DNA of 36,761 bases from positions 1 to 36,761 of the IMG/VR virus record IMGVR_UViG_3300006119_000029; one strand, 5' to 3'. The position numbers were made by a program, and so were the translations under genes. Positions within the stretch are counted from its first letter, which is position 1, and every line of letters begins with the position of its first letter. Below, piece by piece: positions 1-36,761 of the stretch. A model generated the notes under the pieces. The model did not search any database. It worked only from the letters and a program-made list of their open reading frames with translations, and had not been told where the DNA came from. The stretch comes from a virus.

Positions 1-104
1 GATTGCCGTCAGGGCCATATGCTCCTTCTACATTACCAAACATAGGCGGTGGCATTTCGTGACCAATGTGTCGTTCAGCACGGCTGACTTTGGGACAATA
101 AAAA
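1..104. repeat. Terminal direct repeat, left copy (104 bp)
   Basis: Bases 1-104 are identical to 36658-36761. The repeat lies inside the methyltransferase gene, and the reading frame continues correctly when the two ends are joined. This is what an assembly overlap of a circular or circularly permuted genome looks like. A true short terminal repeat is possible but less likely, because it would cut a coding gene. Confidence 0.97.
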
Positions 105-931
105 TACTTTTGGTAATCTGGGATCTCTCCGATGACATTGGCTGGAAATCGACCATCTACCGTGCCAACATCTTCATAGGTGTCCCAATTCTTCTTACCA
201 TCTCCGTGATGAGTAAATGCCTTGCCATCATCCTTTTTAAGATGACGCACTATCATAGGATCATCTCCTACACGAGCTGCATCAATGTTGATGGCTCCTG
301 TTCCATACTTCTCACAGTTGGCAGCTATGTTCTTTTCTGACAGTGGTTTACGGGCCATAACAATGGGCTCGTGTGCGGGTTTGAGTTGTGTGCCCCAACC
401 TGACCAGGGATTATCTACCACAATGACTTCTTCATACACAACTCCATACTTGTTGCCTTCGTGACTTTGTGCCAACTTGTTACCATTGATGTCAGGCAAA
501 GCACGATATAGTTTGCCTGTGTTGGGATGTTTAAAGTTATTACCTGTTTGAATCATAATGGCAGGATCAAAGCGTTGTTTGTCAGGCTTGCCATTGGCCT
601 TCTTGTGCAGTTGGCGTCCAACGTCCTGACTCTTAGGAAAGCCTGAACTATAGATCCACATAATCTGATCACGGATTTCAAATCCGGCACGCTCAATGGT
701 TGTGGCCAGATGGTGGTAGGTCCTTGCTGCCGAGAAAGCCAGGATATGGCCTCCGGGTTTTAGAACACGCAGGCATTCTTGGTAGGTCTCCAATGAACCA
801 GTGTCACTGTCCCAGGCCTTGCCCAGAAAATCAATGCCATAGGGTGGATCTGTGACTATGCTGTCAAAATGGTTATCGGGAAATGTTTTAAGTGTGGCAA
901 CATTGTTGCCCTGTAACAGTTGATATTTCAT
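1..931 (-). CDS. DNA methyltransferase (N6-A or N4-C, beta-class order), N-terminal part; continues at 36657
   Basis: Starting at ATG 931 on the minus strand, the frame is open to base 1 and continues in phase at 36657 down to the stop at 36359, giving one 409-aa protein. This part holds the catalytic motif IV, DPPYG at residues 28-32, followed by an LKPGGH segment near residue 70. The SAM-binding motif DPFNGSGSTG lies in the C-terminal part (residues 352-361). Motif IV before motif I is the beta-class arrangement of N6-adenine/N4-cytosine methyltransferases (N6_N4_Mtase family). No restriction endonuclease gene is adjacent, so it is probably a solitary enzyme protecting phage DNA or marking it for packaging; target site unknown. 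It follows the 105-aa gene by 26 nt and overlaps the terminase start by 11 nt. AGGAGA lies 7 nt before the ATG. Confidence 0.93.
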   Translation of the reverse strand, partial: MKYQLLQGNNVATLKTFPDNHFDSIVTDPPYGIDFLGKAWDSDTGSLETYQECLRVLKPGGHILAFSAARTYHHLATTIERAGFEIRDQIMWIYSSGFPKSQDVGRQLHKKANGKPDKQRFDPAIMIQTGNNFKHPNTGKLYRALPDINGNKLAQSHEGNKYGVVYEEVIVVDNPWSGWGTQLKPAHEPIVMARKPLSEKNIAANCEKYGTGAINIDAARVGDDPMIVRHLKKDDGKAFTHHGDGKKNWDTYEDVGTVDGRFPANVIGEIPDYQKYFYCPKVSRAERHIGHEMPPPMFGNVEGAYGPDGN

Positions 932-957
932 TTGTTTCTCCTGTAGCAAATATCATT

Positions 958-1275
958 TTAGAATCCTCGTCGGATATCGTTTAAGAGTTGTGCAGTTTGA
1001 GCCAACTGTTCAAGTTCAGCAGGTGTCATACGCCAGGTATCAGGATTGCTCACATCCACATCACCACGTTTGTCAAGGCCCGCTTGGAGCCTTTCCATTG
1101 TTAGACGTAGGCAGTGTTCAACCTGTCCTGGATACTTTTCAGCGAATGCTTCACGATGAGCACTGTTTACTTTTTGCAAGATCTTGACATCAGCAGTTTG
1201 CTCCTGGGCCAGGCGCTGTCGGGACTCAGCAACAGTTTCCATTTGTCTAGCAATGTCGTTGGTGTGTAACCCCAT
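958..1275 (-). CDS. Hypothetical 105-aa helical protein just upstream of methyltransferase and terminase
   Basis: The start ATG overlaps the stop of the SOD-like gene by one base (TAATG), a typical translational-coupling junction. The protein is charged and predicted largely helical, with Glu/Gln/Arg-rich stretches and a C-terminal segment MTPAELEQLAQTAQLL that resembles a helix-turn-helix or a packing helix. I do not recognise a family. Because it lies immediately before the methyltransferase-terminase pair it is an alternative candidate for the small terminase subunit, but the 107-aa gene at 4911-5234 has the better motif. Confidence 0.75.
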   Translation of the reverse strand: MGLHTNDIARQMETVAESRQRLAQEQTADVKILQKVNSAHREAFAEKYPGQVEHCLRLTMERLQAGLDKRGDVDVSNPDTWRMTPAELEQLAQTAQLLNDIRRGF

Positions 1276-1784
1276 TACATTAGACCCAATCTATCTTCGA
1301 TATGGTTCCAATCAATGATCTTCCAAATGTTGTCAAAGTATTCTTCTTTGCGCCAAAGGTAGTCAGGATTCCAAGCGTGTTCCCACCAATCGATGAGTAG
1401 CACAATGTCATCACGCACTTCGTGGTTCTTTATGGTCTTGATGGTGCCGTCGGTGGCCAGGTAAACCCAACCAGAACCCTGTATCCGCATAGCAGCATCT
1501 TTCATTAGGGCTTTGAGGCCAGTTAGGCTGCTTGAATGTTTACGGATTAGGTCCATTGTGAGTTCACCGGGCTTAGATCCTGTGTTGGGACGTGTGAACT
1601 GTGTGAAGTAAATGTCGTGTAGGAAAGCGCCAGCACGATTGAACTCTGGTGAGCCCTCGTGCTGATTGAAACGATCCACATAACCTCGATACAAATGCCC
1701 GTAATGGTAATCAATGTTGGCCCGGCTCAACACTGGCTCTAAGGCATCACGTGGCACTGGCAGGGGTGATTGTTTCAATAGCAT
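1275..1784 (-). CDS. Fe/Mn superoxide dismutase-like protein (169 aa)
   Basis: Start chosen at ATG 1784, which overlaps the upstream stop (TAATG); a TTG at 1794-1796 is an unlikely alternative. The sequence aligns with Fe/Mn SOD at both ends: an N-terminal DALEP...HYGH...Y block and the hallmark IDWWEHAW-x2-DY block at 131-142. All four metal ligands can be placed by alignment with E. coli MnSOD: His27, His56, Asp132 and His136, with the gate Tyr35 and the QGSGW core at 102-106. Odd points: the helical hairpin between Tyr35 and His56 is about 25 residues shorter than in E. coli; the second-sphere His30 position is Leu31; and the metal-tuning Gln146 position is His121 (KNHEV), as in some cambialistic SODs. 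The family dismutates superoxide to H2O2 and O2; activity here is an inference. It sits in the late cluster, between unknown genes and the packaging genes. Confidence 0.85.
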   Translation of the reverse strand: MLLKQSPLPVPRDALEPVLSRANIDYHYGHLYRGYVDRFNQHEGSPEFNRAGAFLHDIYFTQFTRPNTGSKPGELTMDLIRKHSSSLTGLKALMKDAAMRIQGSGWVYLATDGTIKTIKNHEVRDDIVLLIDWWEHAWNPDYLWRKEEYFDNIWKIIDWNHIEDRLGLM

Positions 1785-23578: not shown

Positions 23579-26500
23579 TTATGCTGTATAGCTACCTGAG
23601 CTTGTAAATTTAATAATAGTGTTACTACCATTAGTTGTCACTGTTGGGCTACCAGTTGTAGTTCCAGTATATTTGCTGGTTGGCACTGACAAAATTACCA
23701 CGCCTGATCCACCATTATATCCACTACTACCGCTGCCGCCATATTCGCCAGCTCCACCACCACCGCCACCAGTGTTGGCAGATCCTGCAGATCCTGCACC
23801 ATATGATCCGCCATATTGGTTACCAGTAGCACCTGTTCCTCCACCACCAGTTCCGCCAGCACCACCTGCTGATCCTCCACCAACGCCGTTGCCGCCACCG
23901 CCACCGCCACCGCCACCGGCATAATAAACACTTGATCCAGTAATATTGGTGGCAAGACCCACGCCACCGGCACCACCATTAGTTGTTGATGAAGCACTAC
24001 CAACGGCTCCAGCACCACCGCCACCGCCGCCATTGCCCCAGGCGCCATTGTTTCCACTTACACCACCGGCATATCCTTGGCCACTTGTTCCGCTTCCAGG
24101 GGCAGTAGAATTACTAAAGTCTCCCATACCGCCACCAGAGCCGCCGTTGCCGCCACCATAAAAAATACCGCCAACTGCATCGCCACCACCACCGCCACCA
24201 CCAACTGAATCAATGGCAACTGCTGCAATGGTAGAGTCAGTTCCATTTACTGCTTGAGTAGATGTTATCTGTCCAGCTCCGCCAGCACCAACAACTATAG
24301 TATAAGTAGTGCCAGAATTTAATGTGACGTTACCTTCCAGATAACCACCGGCGCCGCCGCCGGCACCTTCACTTGTGCTACTTGATGATCCGCCACCGCC
24401 ACCACCACCAATTGATAGATACCAGGCATTGTAACTAGCTGGTGCTGGAGTGTATGTCTGACTAAAGTTTTTCCAAGCGGCATCAATAGCATCATACCAT
24501 TCAGGATTGCTTGTGTCTGAATTAAATCTCACAGTGCCAGGACTTGGATTTGATGGACGACTGCTGTTGCCGCCTATTGGTAATCCCAATCCACCTGTGT
24601 TAACACTCATATCAACTGTGTTGCTTGCAGCAGTAATGGTAGTGTTACCACTAACTGTTGACAAGTTACCACCAAAGTTTACTGTGCTGGTTGGCAAATA
24701 GCTGGCCACATTGGCATTGCTGTAGGTTGAACCACCACCTGTTGCAGCAGTTGTCATACTGGTGCCATCGCTAAACACAATGGCTTTGCCAGACCCAGGA
24801 GCCAACACAATATTGGCATTGGTTTGAATCAGGCTGTTGCTATCTTCGTTCAAGACAGCATAACGGTTTGTGATAGCACCACCACCGGCAGCGCCAGGAG
24901 CTGTTACCCAACCACTTGGAGTATGTAAACCAACAGCATTGGTAATTGCAACACTGTTTGATGCTGGACCAATTTGTGGCAAGAAACCACGTGCATAGAT
25001 CACGTTGGCAGTGTTGGTAGCGCCGTAAGTGGTCTGACTTTGAATCTGACCTGTTACCCCAGTAACATAGTTTACGTTGGCAACCAAGCCGCTACCAAGA
25101 GCAGTTCCTTCGGGTATGAGATACACAGTGCCAGTTACTGCACCAGCAGTGCCCAATGTTCCGTTACCGTATATGCTTAAAAAGTTTTGCTGTGTGGCCA
25201 CAGTAGTTTGCAATTGAGCCTGGCTACTGGCCCAACTGATACCATTCAAGTTAACTTCAAGAGTGTTTTCTGAATGACGATAACGGTCAGTGTTCTGCAT
25301 CACGTTGGCTGTTACTGGCCAAATGCTCTGATAGTTTAAGATACCATTGGTAAATCTTGTATTGGTAGTTTGATAGCTGGACTGTAGACCCACATTGCCC
25401 ACAGTTTGCATCAAGTAGCTGTTTTGGTTGATTAGACCGTTGACGGCCGTGCCAGCAGCTGGTTGCAATACTCCGTTTACATAAACTGGAGGATTGTTTT
25501 TAATGTTTTGCCACATTGGTGGCTGTGTGCCTGGATCGCTTTGTGGATAAGCATTGGCCAGGATACGACCGTTAACACTGTCAAACAGGGTTGATCCAGC
25601 CAGGTTGCCAGTGAATGCAATGCCGCTTGCACCTGTAGCTCCAGTAGCGCCTGTTGCACCTGTTGCTCCCACTGGTCCTGTAGCTCCAGCAGGTCCTGTG
25701 GCACCTGTAGCTCCAACGGGTCCAGTTGCGCCAGTAGGTCCTGTGGCTCCTGTTAGGCCAGTAGCTCCGGTTGCACCTACGTTACCTTGAATACCTGTAG
25801 CGCCAGTAGCACCTGTTGCGCCTGTAGGTCCTGTGGCTCCGGCTGGTCCAGTGGCTCCAGTGGCTCCCGTTGCACCTGTAGGTCCTGTTGCGCCTGTAGC
25901 GCCTGCTGGTCCTGTGATAGGAACACCAACGCTCCAAGCTAGTGTAACGTTGCTGGTTGATGCCCATTCAGGACTATTAAGTGCAACTGATACAATAGCA
26001 TTACCGCCAGCAATAAGCAAACCATTAGAAGTTCCTACTGGAAGACTTACTGAAGTCCAGTTAATAGCGTTTGAACTTGTGATTGCTGTGTTGGCCACTG
26101 AACCATAAGTTGAGAATAAACCATTACCAAATGCAATGGCGTGACTATCATTGGAAGTCTGAGAGATTGGCGCGTAGTATTCAGTCCAATTTGAACCATC
26201 ACTACTGATACAAACTGTTGAAGTTCCTGTGGCAACAAATATACCATTACCATATGCAACACTGTCATATTGATCGGCAGGAATAGTATTTGCAGCAGTC
26301 CAGGTGCTACCATCATATGAATAATAGATTGCAGTAGAACCTGAGTTATAACCAAGTGCAACAAAACGACCATTGCCATAAGCAACGTCAGTTAGATATC
26401 CAACTGGCATAGTTACGGTGGTCCAAGTAACGCCACCATCTGAACTGATTGCACTAGAAGTTGACCCAAACGCCAATGCAAATACTGTATTGTTTCCATC

Positions 26501-28096
26501 ACAGGCCAATGCAAAATATGAACCACCACCAGGGCTAGGAATACCGCTGGCCAGCGTCCAACTAGCGCCATTGTTTGTAGAATACATTGTGTAGGCTGAT
26601 GTGCCAGCAGCAATCAAACGACCATTGCCTGGAACATAAACAATATCTTTCCAAATTTTACCAAGGTTGGCTGCAAGACTATTGTTGGTCCAGGTGATAC
26701 CATTGCTACTGGTCCAGGCTGCATTGGTTCCACCTGACGGACTTGTAGTTACAATAACATAACTGCTGTTACCAAATCCAGTAGTAGTATAAGCACCACC
26801 TGTGCCTGGCAATGTCACGTTGGCAAAGTTTGTTGCTGTTGAAGTTTGAATGTAGACATTGCTACGATCAGTTGCTAGATATGTAAATCCTGGTGCTGAG
26901 TTAGCATAGTTGCCAATGTTGGCATAAGTGCCAATAGCATTGAATGTCAGACCCATACCAGTTGCGCCTGTAGCGCCAGTGGCTCCACTTGCACCTGTAG
27001 CACCCGCTGGACCTGTTGCGCCAGTAGCACCCGTTGGTCCAGTAGCTCCAGTTGCACCCGCTCCGGTAGCACCAGTTGCGCCAGTGGCCCCGGCAGGTCC
27101 TGTTGCGCCTGTTGGTCCTGTAGCTCCTGTAGCTCCTGTTGCTCCTGCACCTGTAGCTCCAGTTGCACCTGTGGCTCCAGCAACTCCTGATGCGCCTGTG
27201 GCACCTGTGGCTCCGGCAGGTCCTGTTGCGCCAGTAGCGCCAGTTGGTCCAGTTGCACCTTGAGGTCCTGTAGCACCTGTAGCACCAACGCCGCCAGAGA
27301 ATGGCTGACCGTTGGCCCATAGATAATGATTGCTAAAGAAGTTTGCTGCTGAAACATTACCTGCATAAGTTGGCAAGTAAGCAGCAACGTTGGCATTGCC
27401 ATAACTGCTGACAGTAAATGTAGCATTGGCATAGGCTTCAAATGCAGCCAGGTTGGCATTTGTGCTGTTGACCTGTGTTTGTAGCCCAGCAGTTTGTGCA
27501 GCCAAATTGATAATGCTAGTGCTGTTGTTTAGACTACCTGAGTAGTATGGCATATAGGCAGCAACGTTGGCATTGCCATATGCGTTAACTAAGTTAGCAC
27601 TGATGTATGGTTGGCCATTGGCCCAATAGAATCCATTTGTGCTGCTAATATTGCCAACACTAACGCTGCCAGCCAAATAGGCAGTAACGTTGGCGTTGCT
27701 ATAGGTAGTTCCTGTGGCAGTAATAGCAACGTTGGTAATGCTGGTCACTTGACCCTTCTGATTAACAACAACCTGTGCCACGTGTGTGCCATCACCATAG
27801 GTGCCAGCTGTAACGCCACTGTTGGCCAGTGTAGCTGTGATAGGTAACCCGGTAACGCCAAATGCAGTTACGTCACCAACAAGGTTAACAATAGGACTAA
27901 TGTTGCCACCACCTCCGCCACCTGATCCAACAAAGTTAGAAATGATTGTGGTGTTGTTGGTTAATGGATCCAAGGCAAAGTTAACATTGCCGTAGTTGTC
28001 CAACAGTGTCAATAACTGTTGGGCTGAAGTTAATACAGGTGTTGCACCGGTTGTGCCGTATAAACCTGTTGTATTGCTGACTGCAACGTTTGCCAT
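23579..28096 (-). CDS. Tail fiber with collagen-like, propeller-like and Gly-rich tip regions (1505 aa)
   Basis: ATG 28096 follows AAGGAAGCATAA. Order: an N-terminal virion-binding part with repeated Y-x-NANV-x-x-YL motifs (132, 173, 232, again near 1135); collagen-like Gly-x-y repeats, mostly GAT/GPT/GPA, at about 270-381; a 280-residue region with four to five GNGxFVAxG...SSDGxxWT repeats (440-720), like Asp-box propeller blades; a second collagen-like block (729-825); and from about 1228 a Gly-rich end with GGGGGGG and GGAGG runs like the adhesin tips of T-even-type phages. Likely the host-binding protein; the Gly-rich loops would set host range. Confidence 0.85.
25620..25920 (-). repeat. 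Collagen-like coding repeat, second block of the fiber
   Basis: Imperfect 9-bp repeats encoding Gly-Ala-Thr/Gly-Pro-Thr/Gly-Pro-Ala triplets. Synonymous codon differences keep exact repeats short. Confidence 0.85.
26955..27290 (-). repeat. Collagen-like coding repeat, first block of the fiber
   Basis: The same 9-bp-type repeat family as at 25620-25920. The two blocks are similar enough to recombine, which would shorten or swap the propeller-like region between them. Confidence 0.85.
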
Positions 28097-29521: not shown

Positions 29522-30838
29522 TCAGAACGATTGTGCGTCCCACGCATTGAGACGTTGGACGTATGCGCTTGCACGCAATTGGCCTTCGGCTCCGTAGTTG
29601 TTTGTAGAACCACCAGAAACACCAACGTATGTGCCGCTTGCAGAGATGTCGTGCAATACAGCAACACCAGCTGGGTTACGAACAATCAATGTTCCTTCTA
29701 GCAAGAACTGGTCAAGAGACGCATCAGCGTTCGAGAACACTTCGTTGTTAGGTCCTAGGTCACGCAAGCTACCCCATTGTAGAACTTCTTCGTTCAAGAA
29801 ATAGATTTGGTTGGAAGCACCAACTTGGTCCATAATCCAAGAATCGAAAATTTCGTATGTGTAGTTGAAGTCACCTTCGTATGTAGCGATAGTGTCACCA
29901 CGTTCGCTGTTCACACGGTTGATACCACGGCTTGTTGGCATTGTGTCGCTCAAGTGAGTGCGTAGACTTGTTGGGCAAACGATTGTGCGGATTTTAGCGT
30001 TGAAACGTTTTTCAGCAGTTGTAACCAATTGCTTATACAAGCTAGGTGCAAATTGTTGCAAGTTGCTTGTGTATTCATAGAAGCTGCTTCCTAGACCTTC
30101 ACCGTTGTTAGTGATGGTAGTAGAACCAGCTGCTGCTGCTGTTCCGCCGATTGTGAATGCGCTTGTTGCGCCTACTGCGTTGGCAGCAAAGCCCAATGTG
30201 TCGCTAGACTCAAAGTTATACAAGGTTGTAATTTGGTTGCTTGTAACAGCCAAGTTACCTGTGCCGTCACCAGCGTTAAAGCTGTGTGTGCCAGCGAAGC
30301 TGTTCAACGAACCCATACGACGACCAGTTTGGCTTGAACCAGTAACTTGTGTGTTACCAGAAACTGCTGTTCCGATGAAAGCAGCGCCGCTTTGTCCAGC
30401 GTATTTTGTGCCCACTTGGTCGTTACGAACCAATTGTGCTTCAACGTCAAACATCAATTCGATCAACTGTTTGACTTCTTGGTATGCTTGAGGATCGCCA
30501 CCAGATTGTTCCACTGCACGAGCAGTGCCAGTAGCACCAACTGTGGTTTGGAAAATTTGTGTGTAGTTACCCAAGTTAGCACGTTGGTTAGATTCAGCGT
30601 TGCCTGGACTAACTGTTGCACCTTCTTGCACAGCTTGAACAGCTGGTGCGCGGTAAACGTCATTGGTCCACAAAGGCAAAGTAGAAACTACTTTACGCTT
30701 TTTAGCCATACACATATTCAGAACGGGTGTGTCATCTTTGACACGGTTGGACACGTCTAAGTCCAAATCTTTTACGACGATATCTGTCTGGTAAGCACCT
30801 GTGCCGTTACCAATCGCCGAGGTTGTAATAGTTGCCAT
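29522..30838 (-). CDS. Major capsid protein, SU10/DUF5309-like (438 aa)
   Basis: The N-terminal region (SNRVKDDTPVLNMCMAKKRKV, then WTNDVYRAPAVQAVQEGA) and the C-terminal FNYTYEIFDSWIMDQVG...FLNEEVLQWGSLRDLG are typical of the DUF5309/SU10-type HK97-fold capsid protein. Length is usual. A central Gly/Ala/Thr/Ser-rich insertion (about 170-250) may form a surface loop. It lies directly after a scaffold-like gene, has the strong ribosome site TAGGAG and is followed by its own terminator. Confidence 0.88.
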   Translation of the reverse strand: MATITTSAIGNGTGAYQTDIVVKDLDLDVSNRVKDDTPVLNMCMAKKRKVVSTLPLWTNDVYRAPAVQAVQEGATVSPGNAESNQRANLGNYTQIFQTTVGATGTARAVEQSGGDPQAYQEVKQLIELMFDVEAQLVRNDQVGTKYAGQSGAAFIGTAVSGNTQVTGSSQTGRRMGSLNSFAGTHSFNAGDGTGNLAVTSNQITTLYNFESSDTLGFAANAVGATSAFTIGGTAAAAGSTTITNNGEGLGSSFYEYTSNLQQFAPSLYKQLVTTAEKRFNAKIRTIVCPTSLRTHLSDTMPTSRGINRVNSERGDTIATYEGDFNYTYEIFDSWIMDQVGASNQIYFLNEEVLQWGSLRDLGPNNEVFSNADASLDQFLLEGTLIVRNPAGVAVLHDISASGTYVGVSGGSTNNYGAEGQLRASAYVQRLNAWDAQSF

Positions 30839-32410: not shown

Positions 32411-34705
32411 TCATCTGTAGGCTGTGGCCTTGTGTTCGCCTATTAAGGCAACACCTTCTAATTGTTTGCCAGCACTGGTGCCCTGCACGTCTGCTTGTAT
32501 TTCCATTGCTTTGGCTTGATCCAACTGTGCTTTTGCAGCCACGCCTTGCGCTTGTGCTGTGAGCAACTGTTCTTGTGGACTTGGGCCTTGTGCTTTTTTG
32601 GCAGCTTGTGCTTGGCTGATCATCTCTTTAACTTCATCTTCAGTTGGCAAGTAAGCATCTGGATTCTTAACTCCCAATGCAAACAGGCTGTCTTCGAATG
32701 GCTTACGAATCTTCTTAAACATTTCTGGAGTTAGCGTGCCCGAAGCAACCAATTGCTGTGTTGTCTGATACAGTTGTGTTTGTCCCTGGATGATGGCTTG
32801 TTGACGTTGCAATTGGTTTTCGTCACTCATCATACCCAATGCCAAATCAATGTGAATTGTCTTACGGTCATTGAAGTTCATATCGTCAAATGCTTCATAG
32901 TCCATAAACACAGCTTTGCCTTCTGGGTGGAACTCTTGTGCAAGTTTACGCACACCATAATCATCACCATATTGAATTAGAGTGCGCCACACTAACCAAA
33001 TGGCAGCTTTCAATCCTTCAGCACAATTCTTAACTGTGTTGTCTTGAATGATTTGGTTTGGTGTTAGGGCCAATTGCAACTTGATGCCACTGTTGCCTGG
33101 AGCCATAACTTCTGGGTTGAATGTGTCTGTTGGCATTGTCATACCAACCATAGCCATTGTGTCTTGCTGGATACGATTCATAGCAGTGTCAATAAACTGC
33201 AAGTTACCTTGTGGCAATGGCAATGGGTAAATGTCTTTTTGTGGATCAAACTTCGAATCCAAAATAAAGATAGCAGCTTCACCGTCCTGGATCATTTCAA
33301 AGTCCAGCTTGTCGGGTTTGACACCAATACGTGGAGTTGCTTGCAGCAAGCCCATCATAATTTCACTGCGATGTCCCGACGTTGCATACTCTTGCATTGG
33401 CACAACTGATTCAGCAATGGCCATACCATAGAAGTTTTGCGCCAATGGTTTTGGAACCATATTGGCAATTGGTATAAACTCTACTTCACGTGCTGAAATA
33501 ACATACTGACCACTGTAGATTAGTTCTACTAGCTCCAGTTCACCATCACCGTCAATGTCGTAACGGTTGTAAACTGTCAACACAGTGACTTGGCGTGCTT
33601 CTGGTTCTTGGGCGGCATAGCCCTGAGCGGGTAGTCCATTGATAGGCACCGAGTCACGTGCGTGTAATGCTAAGTTGTTTAGCAAGCTACCCGCTTGATA
33701 TGCTCCAACGTTGCTATACTGTGCATAGACTTTGAATTCTTCTAGGTCAATGTCTGGATATAGCTCTGTGGCTTCTTGGATACTCATTGGCTTGTAGTAT
33801 CCGCAGAAACTTTGTTCTTCAATGCTGATGATTGTTGGGTCACACATCCAATAGTGTTGTGCAATTGGACGGAACTTGACGTTTAGTTTGTAACCAGTTA
33901 ACTTATACTTTGCTTCGTAGATTGTGTTACGTGCAAGACTTGCACGGATTTCGTCTTCGGTATCACGTAGGTCAACATCTTCGCTTGATTCATCTAGACT
34001 TGAGAAATCACCTTCGGCTGCGGTCTGTGCTTGACCAATGATATGGTCCAGGTTCTCACGACGTTGTTCTTCTGGAATGCCTTGTTGATACTGTGCAATT
34101 TCTAATTGGACCTTGTCCATATCCACAGTGTGTTTGCGACGACTCTGACGGAATGGTTTTAGGCCAGCTTCTTCGGCTTGCTGTTCAAATGCACGTAGTT
34201 GGTCCAATGTTCCGTGTGTTGTGACATAGCGCACAAACTGTTCACGCATTGGGCTGACCATCATCTCACCGTTCTTGTGCAAGGCTGCGTCCATTACCCA
34301 GTGTTGCAAGATTTGGTGTGGATCATTGTTTTGGTTAATGATCTTGTGAACCATTTGCGTTGCTTGCTTGGCTGCTGCTGCGTCAGCTTCATTGTCGGCC
34401 ACAAACTCAAACTTGATCTCGCCATTCTGTGCAAGTCCTTTGGTGATCACTGCTGTAGCGTAGTCGACAACGGGTTTTACGACCGGATGGATATAGTCAA
34501 TGCCGTTTACTGGTTCAGTAGATTGTGTTACTGCAAGCACCAGGTAGTGGTAATCGCTTGCACGGTTAATGTTATTCTTAGTGGCCAACAAACGTAGGTT
34601 AGCTGCACATTTTGCGTCCAGCAAACTTTTCATTTTAACAAAGCGAGCCATTTGCCCACTGTGGTTGTTTAAGTTGCTGATGACGACGTTTTTCAAATCC
34701 AACAT
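32411..34705 (-). CDS. Portal protein, P22/phiEco32-like (764 aa)
   Basis: A large portal of the podovirus type: N-terminal helical region, a stem-crown part with YWMCDPTIISIEEQSFCGYY and VTVLTVYNRYDIDGDGELELVELIYSG (about 295-420), a PLAQNFYGMAIAESVVPMQEY helix, a DTFNPEVMAPGNSGIKLQ clip segment, and a long Gln/Ala-rich C-terminal barrel helix. The length fits P22-type portals (725 aa) and exceeds siphovirus portals. It directly follows the large terminase gene. Confidence 0.88.
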   Translation of the reverse strand: MLDLKNVVISNLNNHSGQMARFVKMKSLLDAKCAANLRLLATKNNINRASDYHYLVLAVTQSTEPVNGIDYIHPVVKPVVDYATAVITKGLAQNGEIKFEFVADNEADAAAAKQATQMVHKIINQNNDPHQILQHWVMDAALHKNGEMMVSPMREQFVRYVTTHGTLDQLRAFEQQAEEAGLKPFRQSRRKHTVDMDKVQLEIAQYQQGIPEEQRRENLDHIIGQAQTAAEGDFSSLDESSEDVDLRDTEDEIRASLARNTIYEAKYKLTGYKLNVKFRPIAQHYWMCDPTIISIEEQSFCGYYKPMSIQEATELYPDIDLEEFKVYAQYSNVGAYQAGSLLNNLALHARDSVPINGLPAQGYAAQEPEARQVTVLTVYNRYDIDGDGELELVELIYSGQYVISAREVEFIPIANMVPKPLAQNFYGMAIAESVVPMQEYATSGHRSEIMMGLLQATPRIGVKPDKLDFEMIQDGEAAIFILDSKFDPQKDIYPLPLPQGNLQFIDTAMNRIQQDTMAMVGMTMPTDTFNPEVMAPGNSGIKLQLALTPNQIIQDNTVKNCAEGLKAAIWLVWRTLIQYGDDYGVRKLAQEFHPEGKAVFMDYEAFDDMNFNDRKTIHIDLALGMMSDENQLQRQQAIIQGQTQLYQTTQQLVASGTLTPEMFKKIRKPFEDSLFALGVKNPDAYLPTEDEVKEMISQAQAAKKAQGPSPQEQLLTAQAQGVAAKAQLDQAKAMEIQADVQGTSAGKQLEGVALIGEHKATAYR

Positions 34706-34743: not shown

Positions 34744-36369
34744 TTAGGCTCGGGGGTTCCAGGCCTGCTTCCACTCAGGCTTTTCTCGTTCTCTGTTCCA
34801 GGATTGAGCTTGGAATTGGTGTCTGAAATCACGCATTCGTTGCTGTGGACTGCGTCCGTCCCAAGGTTCGGCGTAACCGTTAAGGCAACCAAGAAGGGCA
34901 TAACGAGCGGAATCAATAGCATCATCAGGATCACTAAATCTTCCCTTGTCATCAGCGTAATAGTTTTGTGCTTCACGTAAGAAAGTAGTGCAGTTTTCAT
35001 TGACGTGTAGTGTTCCCAGTTCCAGCATTTGCCGCATAATATTTATACCATAGCTCTTGTGGTTGGTGCGTCTGCCCTGATCGTCTGGCGGATTCATAAT
35101 GGGCTCACTGACAACGTTGAGTTCGTATTCTTCAAACAAGGTGCGAATACTCTGACTTGACATTGTATATCGACCCGCTGTTGAAGCATCTGCTGGCAGC
35201 ACAATAGGCGTGCCAAACACTTCTGGACGCATCAGATGGTTGATATAGTTCATTGGGTTGGCTTCTTCAATGCCCTTGACCACTATCTGGTGATGCAGCC
35301 AAGCCTCTTTTTCTGTTGGGTGCCAATACATTAGACTGATAACTGTCTTGTCGTTGACCAAGCCCAAGTCTAGCGCAATAACTCGTTGTATGCCAGTAGT
35401 GTTACGCAGATCATACTCACCAGTCTTGTAAGTGGGCCAGCTTCGGATTTGGAATACAGCTCCTTTGCCCATAACAGGAATACCGTTGCGGCGAGCGTCA
35501 CGTTCGTGAGGAAGGTAATCTCGTTCAAGTTGTTGCCTAGTAGACATAAGCAAGAATGGTTCGCCCCAAGGATCGTATTCTGGCACATCATCCCAAGACA
35601 CTCTAATATGTTCATATCCATCTTCGTGGTTCCAAAACTTTGACACCAGTCCGTTAAGACCCTTTAGTGGGGTAAACGAGCAAAGAACTTGGCCTTGCGT
35701 TGTGGCAGTTCGCGTGACAATCTCGCTAAAGAAATCGTCAGGCGGTTGTTCATCAAACACTGCCAGGTTGAGTTTGAAACCCTGCATTTGTCTAACTTCC
35801 TGTGTGTAGTTAGCAAATAGTAGATAGCTGTTTTGACCGCTTGTGTGACGGATTTCAATACCCACACAGTTAGGCCCATCGCTACGCATAGTGTCAAACA
35901 CAATAGCATCACGAGGTATAGCGCCAGTGCCAACAGCGTCCGTAATCTTAACATCATTTGTTCCTAATAGTTCTGCTTGCAATACCAATGCAACCTGACT
36001 CCAACCTTCACCAGCAACCATAGCTGTGATGGCCTTGTTGAAACGTTTGCCAGTCCACCAGGCAGGATATTGTCCAGTTAGGTGCATTGCTGTTTCATAA
36101 CAGGTTGACACAGTTTTACCAATACGGTTGGCAGCAAGGATACCACGACGATCACAAGTGCCTGTGGCAAAGAAACGCCGTTGGTGATCAAAAGGTCTAA
36201 AATATCGGAGCTGGTTGTAGCGCATATCCTCCTGCACATCAAAAGCCAAGGCTTGAAACTTTTCTCGGACCGCAAGAGGCAAGCGTGGAACTGCGGCAGG
36301 ATCCATACCATTTTGTTCACACACATAGCGAATGCTGCGGCGCATCAACAAGGCTGCATCAATTGTCAT
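34744..36369 (-). CDS. Terminase large subunit (541 aa)
   Basis: Start at ATG 36369 (MTIDAALLMRR), overlapping the methyltransferase stop by 11 nt; the longer open frame would run through the methyltransferase. Motifs: Walker A GILAANRIGKT (76-86), Walker B LAVFDEQPP (202-210) with the catalytic Glu, and a C-terminal RNase H-type nuclease with acidic residues in IALDLGLVND (Asp334), LPADAS (Asp394) and DPDDAIDSARYAL (about 480-492). It pumps DNA into the head through the portal and cuts concatemers. Confidence 0.93.
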   Translation of the reverse strand: MTIDAALLMRRSIRYVCEQNGMDPAAVPRLPLAVREKFQALAFDVQEDMRYNQLRYFRPFDHQRRFFATGTCDRRGILAANRIGKTVSTCYETAMHLTGQYPAWWTGKRFNKAITAMVAGEGWSQVALVLQAELLGTNDVKITDAVGTGAIPRDAIVFDTMRSDGPNCVGIEIRHTSGQNSYLLFANYTQEVRQMQGFKLNLAVFDEQPPDDFFSEIVTRTATTQGQVLCSFTPLKGLNGLVSKFWNHEDGYEHIRVSWDDVPEYDPWGEPFLLMSTRQQLERDYLPHERDARRNGIPVMGKGAVFQIRSWPTYKTGEYDLRNTTGIQRVIALDLGLVNDKTVISLMYWHPTEKEAWLHHQIVVKGIEEANPMNYINHLMRPEVFGTPIVLPADASTAGRYTMSSQSIRTLFEEYELNVVSEPIMNPPDDQGRRTNHKSYGINIMRQMLELGTLHVNENCTTFLREAQNYYADDKGRFSDPDDAIDSARYALLGCLNGYAEPWDGRSPQQRMRDFRHQFQAQSWNREREKPEWKQAWNPRA

Positions 36370-36761
36370 CGGTAGTGAATAACTGGTTGAAGTTGTTTTT
36401 GTGCGTGGTCCGATACCAGGCTTCAATGCGCTGGCGACTGATCTCAACATAGGCTGGATCAAGTTCCAGGCCTGTGTATTCATAGTCCAGCTCCACAGCA
36501 GCACAGCCGGTTGATCCAGAACCGTTGAATGGATCCAACACCGTGCCACCTGGTGGAGTGACAAGTTTGATCAAATACTTCATTAGTTCAATGGGTTTCA
36601 CGGTGGGATGGTTGTTGCCTACATTACCGGTGCGGGCATCTAACCCAACTGCCATTCGATTGCCGTCAGGGCCATATGCTCCTTCTACATTACCAAACAT
36701 AGGCGGTGGCATTTCGTGACCAATGTGTCGTTCAGCACGGCTGACTTTGGGACAATAAAAA
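36359..36761 (-). CDS. DNA methyltransferase, C-terminal part; continuous with 931-1
   Basis: This is the end of the 409-aa methyltransferase. It contains HPTVKP (327-332) and the SAM-binding DPFNGSGSTG (352-361), then YTGLELDPAYVEISRQRI, the usual C-terminal helix of N6_N4_Mtase enzymes. An ATG at 36712 is internal. The terminase start overlaps its final codons by 11 nt. Confidence 0.93.
   Translation of the reverse strand, partial: FYCPKVSRAERHIGHEMPPPMFGNVEGAYGPDGNRMAVGLDARTGNVGNNHPTVKPIELMKYLIKLVTPPGGTVLDPFNGSGSTGCAAVELDYEYTGLELDPAYVEISRQRIEAWYRTTHKNNFNQLFTTDDN
36658..36761. repeat. Terminal direct repeat, right copy (104 bp)
   Basis: Identical to bases 1-104. Joining the copies gives a 36,657-bp circle. 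Confidence 0.97.

Follow-up and report, generated by a model that had tools for sequence, protein, structure and literature searches.

Predicted minimal Fe/Mn superoxide dismutases form a widespread, phage-restricted variant of a known enzyme family

A gene in the freshwater phage record IMGVR_UViG_3300006119_000029 (36,761 nucleotides, analysed in full and referred to here as the window) encodes what is, by sequence and predicted fold, a real and minimal member of the Fe/Mn superoxide dismutase (SodFM) family. Superoxide dismutase (SOD) is a superoxide-removing enzyme, and sequence comparison identifies the compact form found in the window as a widespread, phage-restricted variant of this known enzyme family. 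Its sequence and structural model predict that the window protein likely acts as a SOD. The account that we consider quite probable is that a minimal SodFM belonging to a phage clade removes superoxide in the infected cell, paired with iron and peroxide handling; we observed the family membership, the predicted fold, the conservation of ligands, gate and bridge, purifying selection, the monophyly of the phage forms and their shared gene neighbourhoods.

The reading frame starts with an ATG at position 1784 and stops at 1277-1275 (Table 1). Its product matched the Pfam families Sod_Fe_C (6.4e-18) and Sod_Fe_N (6.9e-8), both passing the curated cut-offs, and its best PDB sequence match was the Porphyromonas gingivalis SOD (E = 2e-21); among PHROGs, no family rose above noise. 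An AlphaFold2 model of the monomer only, built on an alignment of 65 sequences that included cellular SODs and was without rows from annotated phage records, has the SodFM fold with pLDDT 96 and pTM 0.91, consisting of a shortened two-helix hairpin (helices 21-40 and 46-61) and an alpha/beta C-terminal part. In the Foldseek comparison that the initial annotation had called for, the 50 PDB matches listed were SodFMs or SOD-like plastid RNA polymerase subunits, with query TM scores of 0.84-0.91. The closest viral model in BFVD was A0A6J5L7W0, a 182 aa protein from an uncultured Caudovirales phage (TM 0.95, 50% identity) whose name, superoxide dismutase, comes from an automatic entry only. The Pfam, AlphaFold2 and Foldseek results rule out a chance match or a mis-framed ORF. 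Pfam and PDB alignments agree on the three His and one Asp that serve as SodFM ligands, and the residue numbers first given for the ligands (His27, His56, Asp132 and His136), the gate Tyr35 and the signature WEHAW..DY were all confirmed by alignment. So were a Leu at the position of E. coli MnSOD His30 and a His at the position of Gln146, which are Leu31 and His121 in the window SOD.

Table 1. Features of the window discussed in the text, with coordinates, strand and basis or remarks.
Feature	Coordinates	Strand	Basis or remarks
Compact Fe/Mn superoxide dismutase (SodFM), 169 aa	1275..1784	-	ORF, Pfam, PDB match, AlphaFold2, alignment
105-aa gene, cluster C5, possibly small terminase by position	958..1275	-	Directly downstream of SOD; overlaps SOD stop as TAATG
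269-aa gene, cluster C4	1784..2593	-	Conserved upstream neighbour; overlaps SOD start as TAATG
N6/N4 DNA methyltransferase, next gene before terminase	2..949, across circular junction to 36359	-	Family searches
Dps/ferritin-like protein, 157 aa	12667..13140	-	PF00210, 4.5e-11
SU10-type major capsid protein	29522..30838	-	PF17236, 4e-33
SU10-type portal protein	32411..34705	-	PF23899, 2e-45
Terminase large subunit	34744..36564	-	Family searches
Terminal repeat	1..104 = 36658-36761	.	Exact overlap

The exact 104-base repeat at the two ends leaves 36,657 unique bases and indicates that the genome is circularly closed or terminally redundant, and the portal and capsid types make the window phage an SU10-type podovirus. 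No host was found for it; its capsid protein matched only a metagenomic relative and a distant Cronobacter phage. The product of the downstream neighbour (C5) had no Pfam or NCBIfam family above cut-off, and none of the family libraries used matched that of the upstream neighbour (C4) above cut-off. In related podoviruses C5 is kept between SOD and terminase, and the 27 podovirus-type loci, the window among them, share the gene order C4, SOD, C5, (methyltransferase), terminase, portal. Because the SOD gene overlaps its neighbours just upstream of the terminase and portal genes, late expression is likely in the window phage by position, and the tight linkage to packaging and structural genes suggests that the enzyme probably acts in the late phase. 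The late-cluster placement proposed from the sequence alone therefore holds for the window phage and the podovirus-type loci, but not as a general rule: the SOD of jumbo phages neighbours ClpX, ClpS, Hsp20, FtsH, gyrase and similar genes, and on T4-like contigs it adjoins UvdE, Fe-S carrier and fibre genes. Collagen-like GAT/GPT repeats occur in a fibre-like protein of 1505 aa, also encoded in the window (23579-28096, minus strand). Separately, two records of 50-54 kb, IMGVR_UViG_3300002091_000037 and IMGVR_UViG_3300002098_000052 (L270/L274 and L275/L288), each carry two different terminase copies (81-82% to that of the window) about 35 kb apart, as joined phages or a mixed assembly would.

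The compact architecture is uniform among the phage forms. The first two His ligands lie 29 residues apart in the window SOD, against 55 in E. coli MnSOD and 47 in E. coli FeSOD, so the loss of about 25 hairpin residues originally described is accurate relative to MnSOD (26 residues) but overstated relative to FeSOD (18 residues). The beta domain, too, is shorter (76 against 83-86, a difference of about 7-10 residues), a point that had gone unremarked. Across all 96 compact phage loci, the window copy counted, 28-29 residues separate the first His ligand from the second and 75-76 separate the second from the Asp, compared with 45-57 and 79-89 in the complete cellular SodFMs sampled. The four ligands and Tyr35 are invariant in the same 96 loci, and the residues equivalent to MnSOD Tyr34 and the Glu170-His171 bridge (Tyr35, Glu135 and His136) do not vary among the phage forms. 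The 73 distinct phage sequences share further substitutions without exception, namely Leu at the His30 position, His at the Gln146 position and Gly (Gly52 in the window SOD) at the position of FeSOD Gln69. Two residues before the ligand Asp, 72 of them have Leu and one has Ile; the position equivalent to E. coli MnSOD Tyr174 holds Asn139 in the window SOD and is Tyr in none of the 73. Pairwise dN/dS values of 0.07-0.20 among the podovirus-type SOD genes indicate purifying selection.

At least 553 IMG/VR stretches encode relatives of the window SOD. SOD matches were present in 20 of 50,697 phage records, 12 being compact jumbo-phage copies and the others cellular-looking and, where inspected, of canonical length, and a SOD was found on none of 45 arbitrary IMG/VR contigs. 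The stated rarity of Fe/Mn SODs in tailed phages is thus correct as a frequency, but the window gene is no one-off. Using tblastn, compact relatives were located in 11 PA5oct-type jumbo phage records (Pseudomonas) and in Vibrio phage 2.275.O, and a search with the Vibrio SOD as query retrieved no further subgroups. Among the genomes sampled and the plasmids listed, no compact SOD occurred outside phage-like contigs; the listed plasmid SODs are of canonical length, and the two candidates in cellular genomes (L099 and L100) both sit on phage-like contigs binned in MAGs. On one of these, from a Methylophilaceae MAG (L100, 9953-11666), the SOD frame is broken near the N-terminus by a frameshift or an assembly error. 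At two other loci (L077 and L083; about 9920-10963 in L077) the compact SOD is in-frame with an SGNH/GDSL-hydrolase-like domain, giving 347 aa from the first start and possibly a fusion.

The HXXXLY motif was considered as a mark of phage SODs and was ruled out, being present in full-length SodFMs of Actinomycetota and Patescibacteria; in the sample examined, compaction alone is phage-restricted. The full-length proteins with HXXXLY-type motifs replacing HXXXHH (L414-L418 and L448-L462) come from these two phyla and one Pseudomonadota genome and apparently form an FM4-like clade.

A phylogeny against the SodFM subfamilies, also suggested at the outset, was run with the sampled cellular SodFMs. 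In the maximum-likelihood tree, which is unrooted, with bootstrap values not fully settled and two jumbo-phage rows as long branches, all phage SODs fall on one branch with support of 100/99 and a stem length of 1.47, separate both from the HXXXLY proteins of cellular Actinomycetota and Patescibacteria (99/97) and from the remaining cellular SodFMs sampled. Following the subfamily definitions of Sendra et al. 2023 (PMC10172142), the phage forms have neither the C-terminal Gln that holds water in SodFM1 and SodFM5 (His121 in 73 of 73) nor the N-terminal Gln that does so in SodFM2 (Gly52 in 73 of 73). The C-terminal His of SodFM3 is present, but the intact HXXXHH that should accompany it reads HXXXLY or HXXXLA. 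By motif the phage SODs would fit SodFM4, in which a C-terminal His is combined with an HXXXHH motif that has lost its last His, though here both HH residues are replaced and the phage clade is separate from the FM4-like clade in this unrooted tree, where FM4-like labels were assigned by motif and not by reference sequences. Viruses and phages are absent from the text of the reference classification (PMC10172142), and no paper describing a compact phage SOD clade was found in the open-licence literature searched. Whether the clade would constitute a sixth, phage-exclusive SodFM subfamily is a proposal to which we give even chances. It would be the smallest functional form, of single origin and moved between podovirus-like, T4-like and jumbo phages, with active-site entrance and dimer interface rewired through loss of the His30-Tyr174 pair and the hairpin, and would serve as an antioxidant module with Dps or Fe-S repair genes, possibly in some virions.

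Comparison with known SODs places the window protein nearest to no single one of them in all features. With SodFM2 (E. coli SodB, the FeSOD), whose hairpin is short among cellular forms, it has in common the four ligands, the gate Tyr and the overall fold; it differs in Gly52 for the N-terminal Gln69, in Leu for His30, in a first-to-second His spacing shorter by 18 residues and in a beta domain shorter by 7. As in the tetrameric SodFM3 and SodFM4, a C-terminal His is the predicted water holder, and HXXXLY is common to the phage SODs and the divergent Actinomycetota and Patescibacteria SodFMs that are FM4-like by motif; the phage SODs nonetheless form their own clade, have hairpins 16-23 residues shorter than the FM4-like set, and keep GSGW where that set has ARGW or GIGW. 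The jumbo-phage SODs (sodB in MIJ3 and Callisto, gp223 in PA5oct) and the SOD of Vibrio phage 2.275.O belong to the same compact clade and have the same motifs at 37-41% identity, but lie on deep long branches, in another gene neighbourhood and in phage types unrelated to that of the window. The Cu,Zn-SOD of Megavirus, cited in PMC9405923, is also virus-encoded but is of a different SOD family, uses other metals and comes from a eukaryotic virus.

The window Dps, which the initial annotation had not connected with the SOD, has a ferritin-like fold with the ferroxidase His, His, Asp and Glu (equivalents of His51, His63, Asp78 and Glu82), the position of E. coli Asp67 being Gln, and it matched the NCBIfam Dps model below that model's own cut-off. 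Among close relatives of the window phage Dps is near-universal with or without SOD, and SOD is present in 3 of 30 near-full-length relatives; SOD is therefore the added part in this clade, and the idea of SOD and Dps as a specific two-gene system there is weakened, Dps being present regardless. More broadly, 16 of the 43 records that carry SOD have a ferritin-like gene above cut-off, as does 1 of the 45 controls (p = 2e-5); outside the podovirus group 10 of 37 SOD-bearing records have one (p = 0.002), and in records of at least 40 kb the figures are 10 of 19 against 1 of 14 controls (p = 0.009), p-values that ignore relatedness and rest on controls unmatched for phage type or habitat. Two records (G008 and G109; L138 and L354) have Dps-like matches with one internal TGA each.

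In the T4-like-type loci, a large group carrying T4-like fibre genes, the UV endonuclease UvdE lies within five genes of SOD in 20 of 31 distinct loci with enough upstream flank, and an A-type Fe-S carrier is near SOD in 40 of 52 with enough downstream flank; anywhere on arbitrary IMG/VR contigs of at least 12 kb, the frequencies are 1/45 and 0/45. We would like to note that these synteny counts are not independent, since the SOD loci come from related phages. SufC-like ABC genes follow SOD in three further loci, and on L100 a SufB-like gene (identified by sequence reading, not by family search) and then a SufC-like gene come right after it. Downstream of SOD in L066, L081 and L082, a SufC-like ABC ATPase and a 273-276-aa gene lie between SOD and a fibre gene.

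On the mechanism that we favour, one Fe or Mn ion would be bound by His27, His56, Asp132 and His136, with His121 holding the metal-bound water, and the enzyme would turn two superoxide ions into oxygen and hydrogen peroxide inside the infected cell. The window SOD is most likely a dimer formed through the kept Glu135-His136 bridge, with iron or either metal. With the window Dps taking up iron and peroxide, the two proteins together would clear superoxide with no need for catalase, shielding phage DNA and iron-sulfur enzymes; in the T4-like relatives, UvdE and the Fe-S carrier or SUF-like genes beside SOD would fit the same role. As for the metal, a C-terminal His was linked to Fe preference in 9 of 13 enzymes (PMC10172142), and Gln142His turned the C. 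elegans MnSOD cambialistic (PMC8190026), from which we predict Fe-leaning or dual-metal use for the window SOD.

The phage SODs have neither member of the His30-Tyr174 pair. In MnSOD, His30 stands at the substrate entrance and is bonded to a Tyr of the other subunit; among animal MnSOD mutants H30N retains 22% activity, H30V works more slowly and shows stronger product inhibition, H30F has almost no activity, and the double change H30N/Y166F is no worse than either single change (PMC9208312, PMC8190026). Since replacing His30 lowers the activity of animal MnSOD, the natural Leu could mean slow turnover. A protein that kept the SodFM fold and metal site for another main activity (metal storage, a peroxidase-like reaction or a binding scaffold) would account for losing both residues in all 73 distinct sequences, given the reduced activity of His30 mutants, and a SOD-SGNH-like fusion exists. 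Nevertheless, we find this improbable: the ligands, gate Tyr, water-holding His and Glu-His bridge are strictly kept, as expected under selection for SOD chemistry, and cellular SodFMs with HXXXLY exist too. That phage forms are without both partners of the pair fits coordinated rewiring and not decay. Recent capture of an ordinary host SodFM now decaying by truncation, which would suit a SOD shorter than every complete cellular form sampled and matching common SodFM families, is strongly disfavoured, because the compact form is common to one deep clade (stem 1.47, support 100/99), the phage genes are under purifying selection, and no compact cellular form exists among the sampled genomes or listed plasmids.

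A place in or on the particle, protecting it or bringing the activity at entry, had been raised alongside late expression, and the SOD gene does adjoin terminase in podovirus-type loci and fibre genes in T4-like ones. The PA5oct homologue gp223, annotated as hypothetical, bears the note 'ESI-MS/MS', so it is made as a protein and possibly co-purifies with or sits on the particle. In the PA5oct record this tag is chiefly on structural proteins, and in two other stretches it is absent from DNA polymerases, PhoH, ClpA and DnaJ; but GTP cyclohydrolase, QueD, FtsH, ligase and a MazG-like protein, which are unlikely to be structural, carry it too, so the tag does not demonstrate packaging, and the jumbo-phage SOD gene lies among metabolic genes. 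We therefore regard a virion component as a minority possibility, rather unlikely beside removal of superoxide in the infected cell.

SodFMs rank with the most widespread and most thoroughly studied metalloenzymes, and a monophyletic phage branch whose scaffold is cut down and which does without the His30-Tyr174 pair is a natural experiment on catalytic needs. That unrelated phages keep the same minimal enzyme, along with genes for iron storage, Fe-S and UV repair, suggests that superoxide often matters in infection. If active, the compact SOD would offer an example, open to testing, of redox chemistry that a phage controls inside the infected cell.
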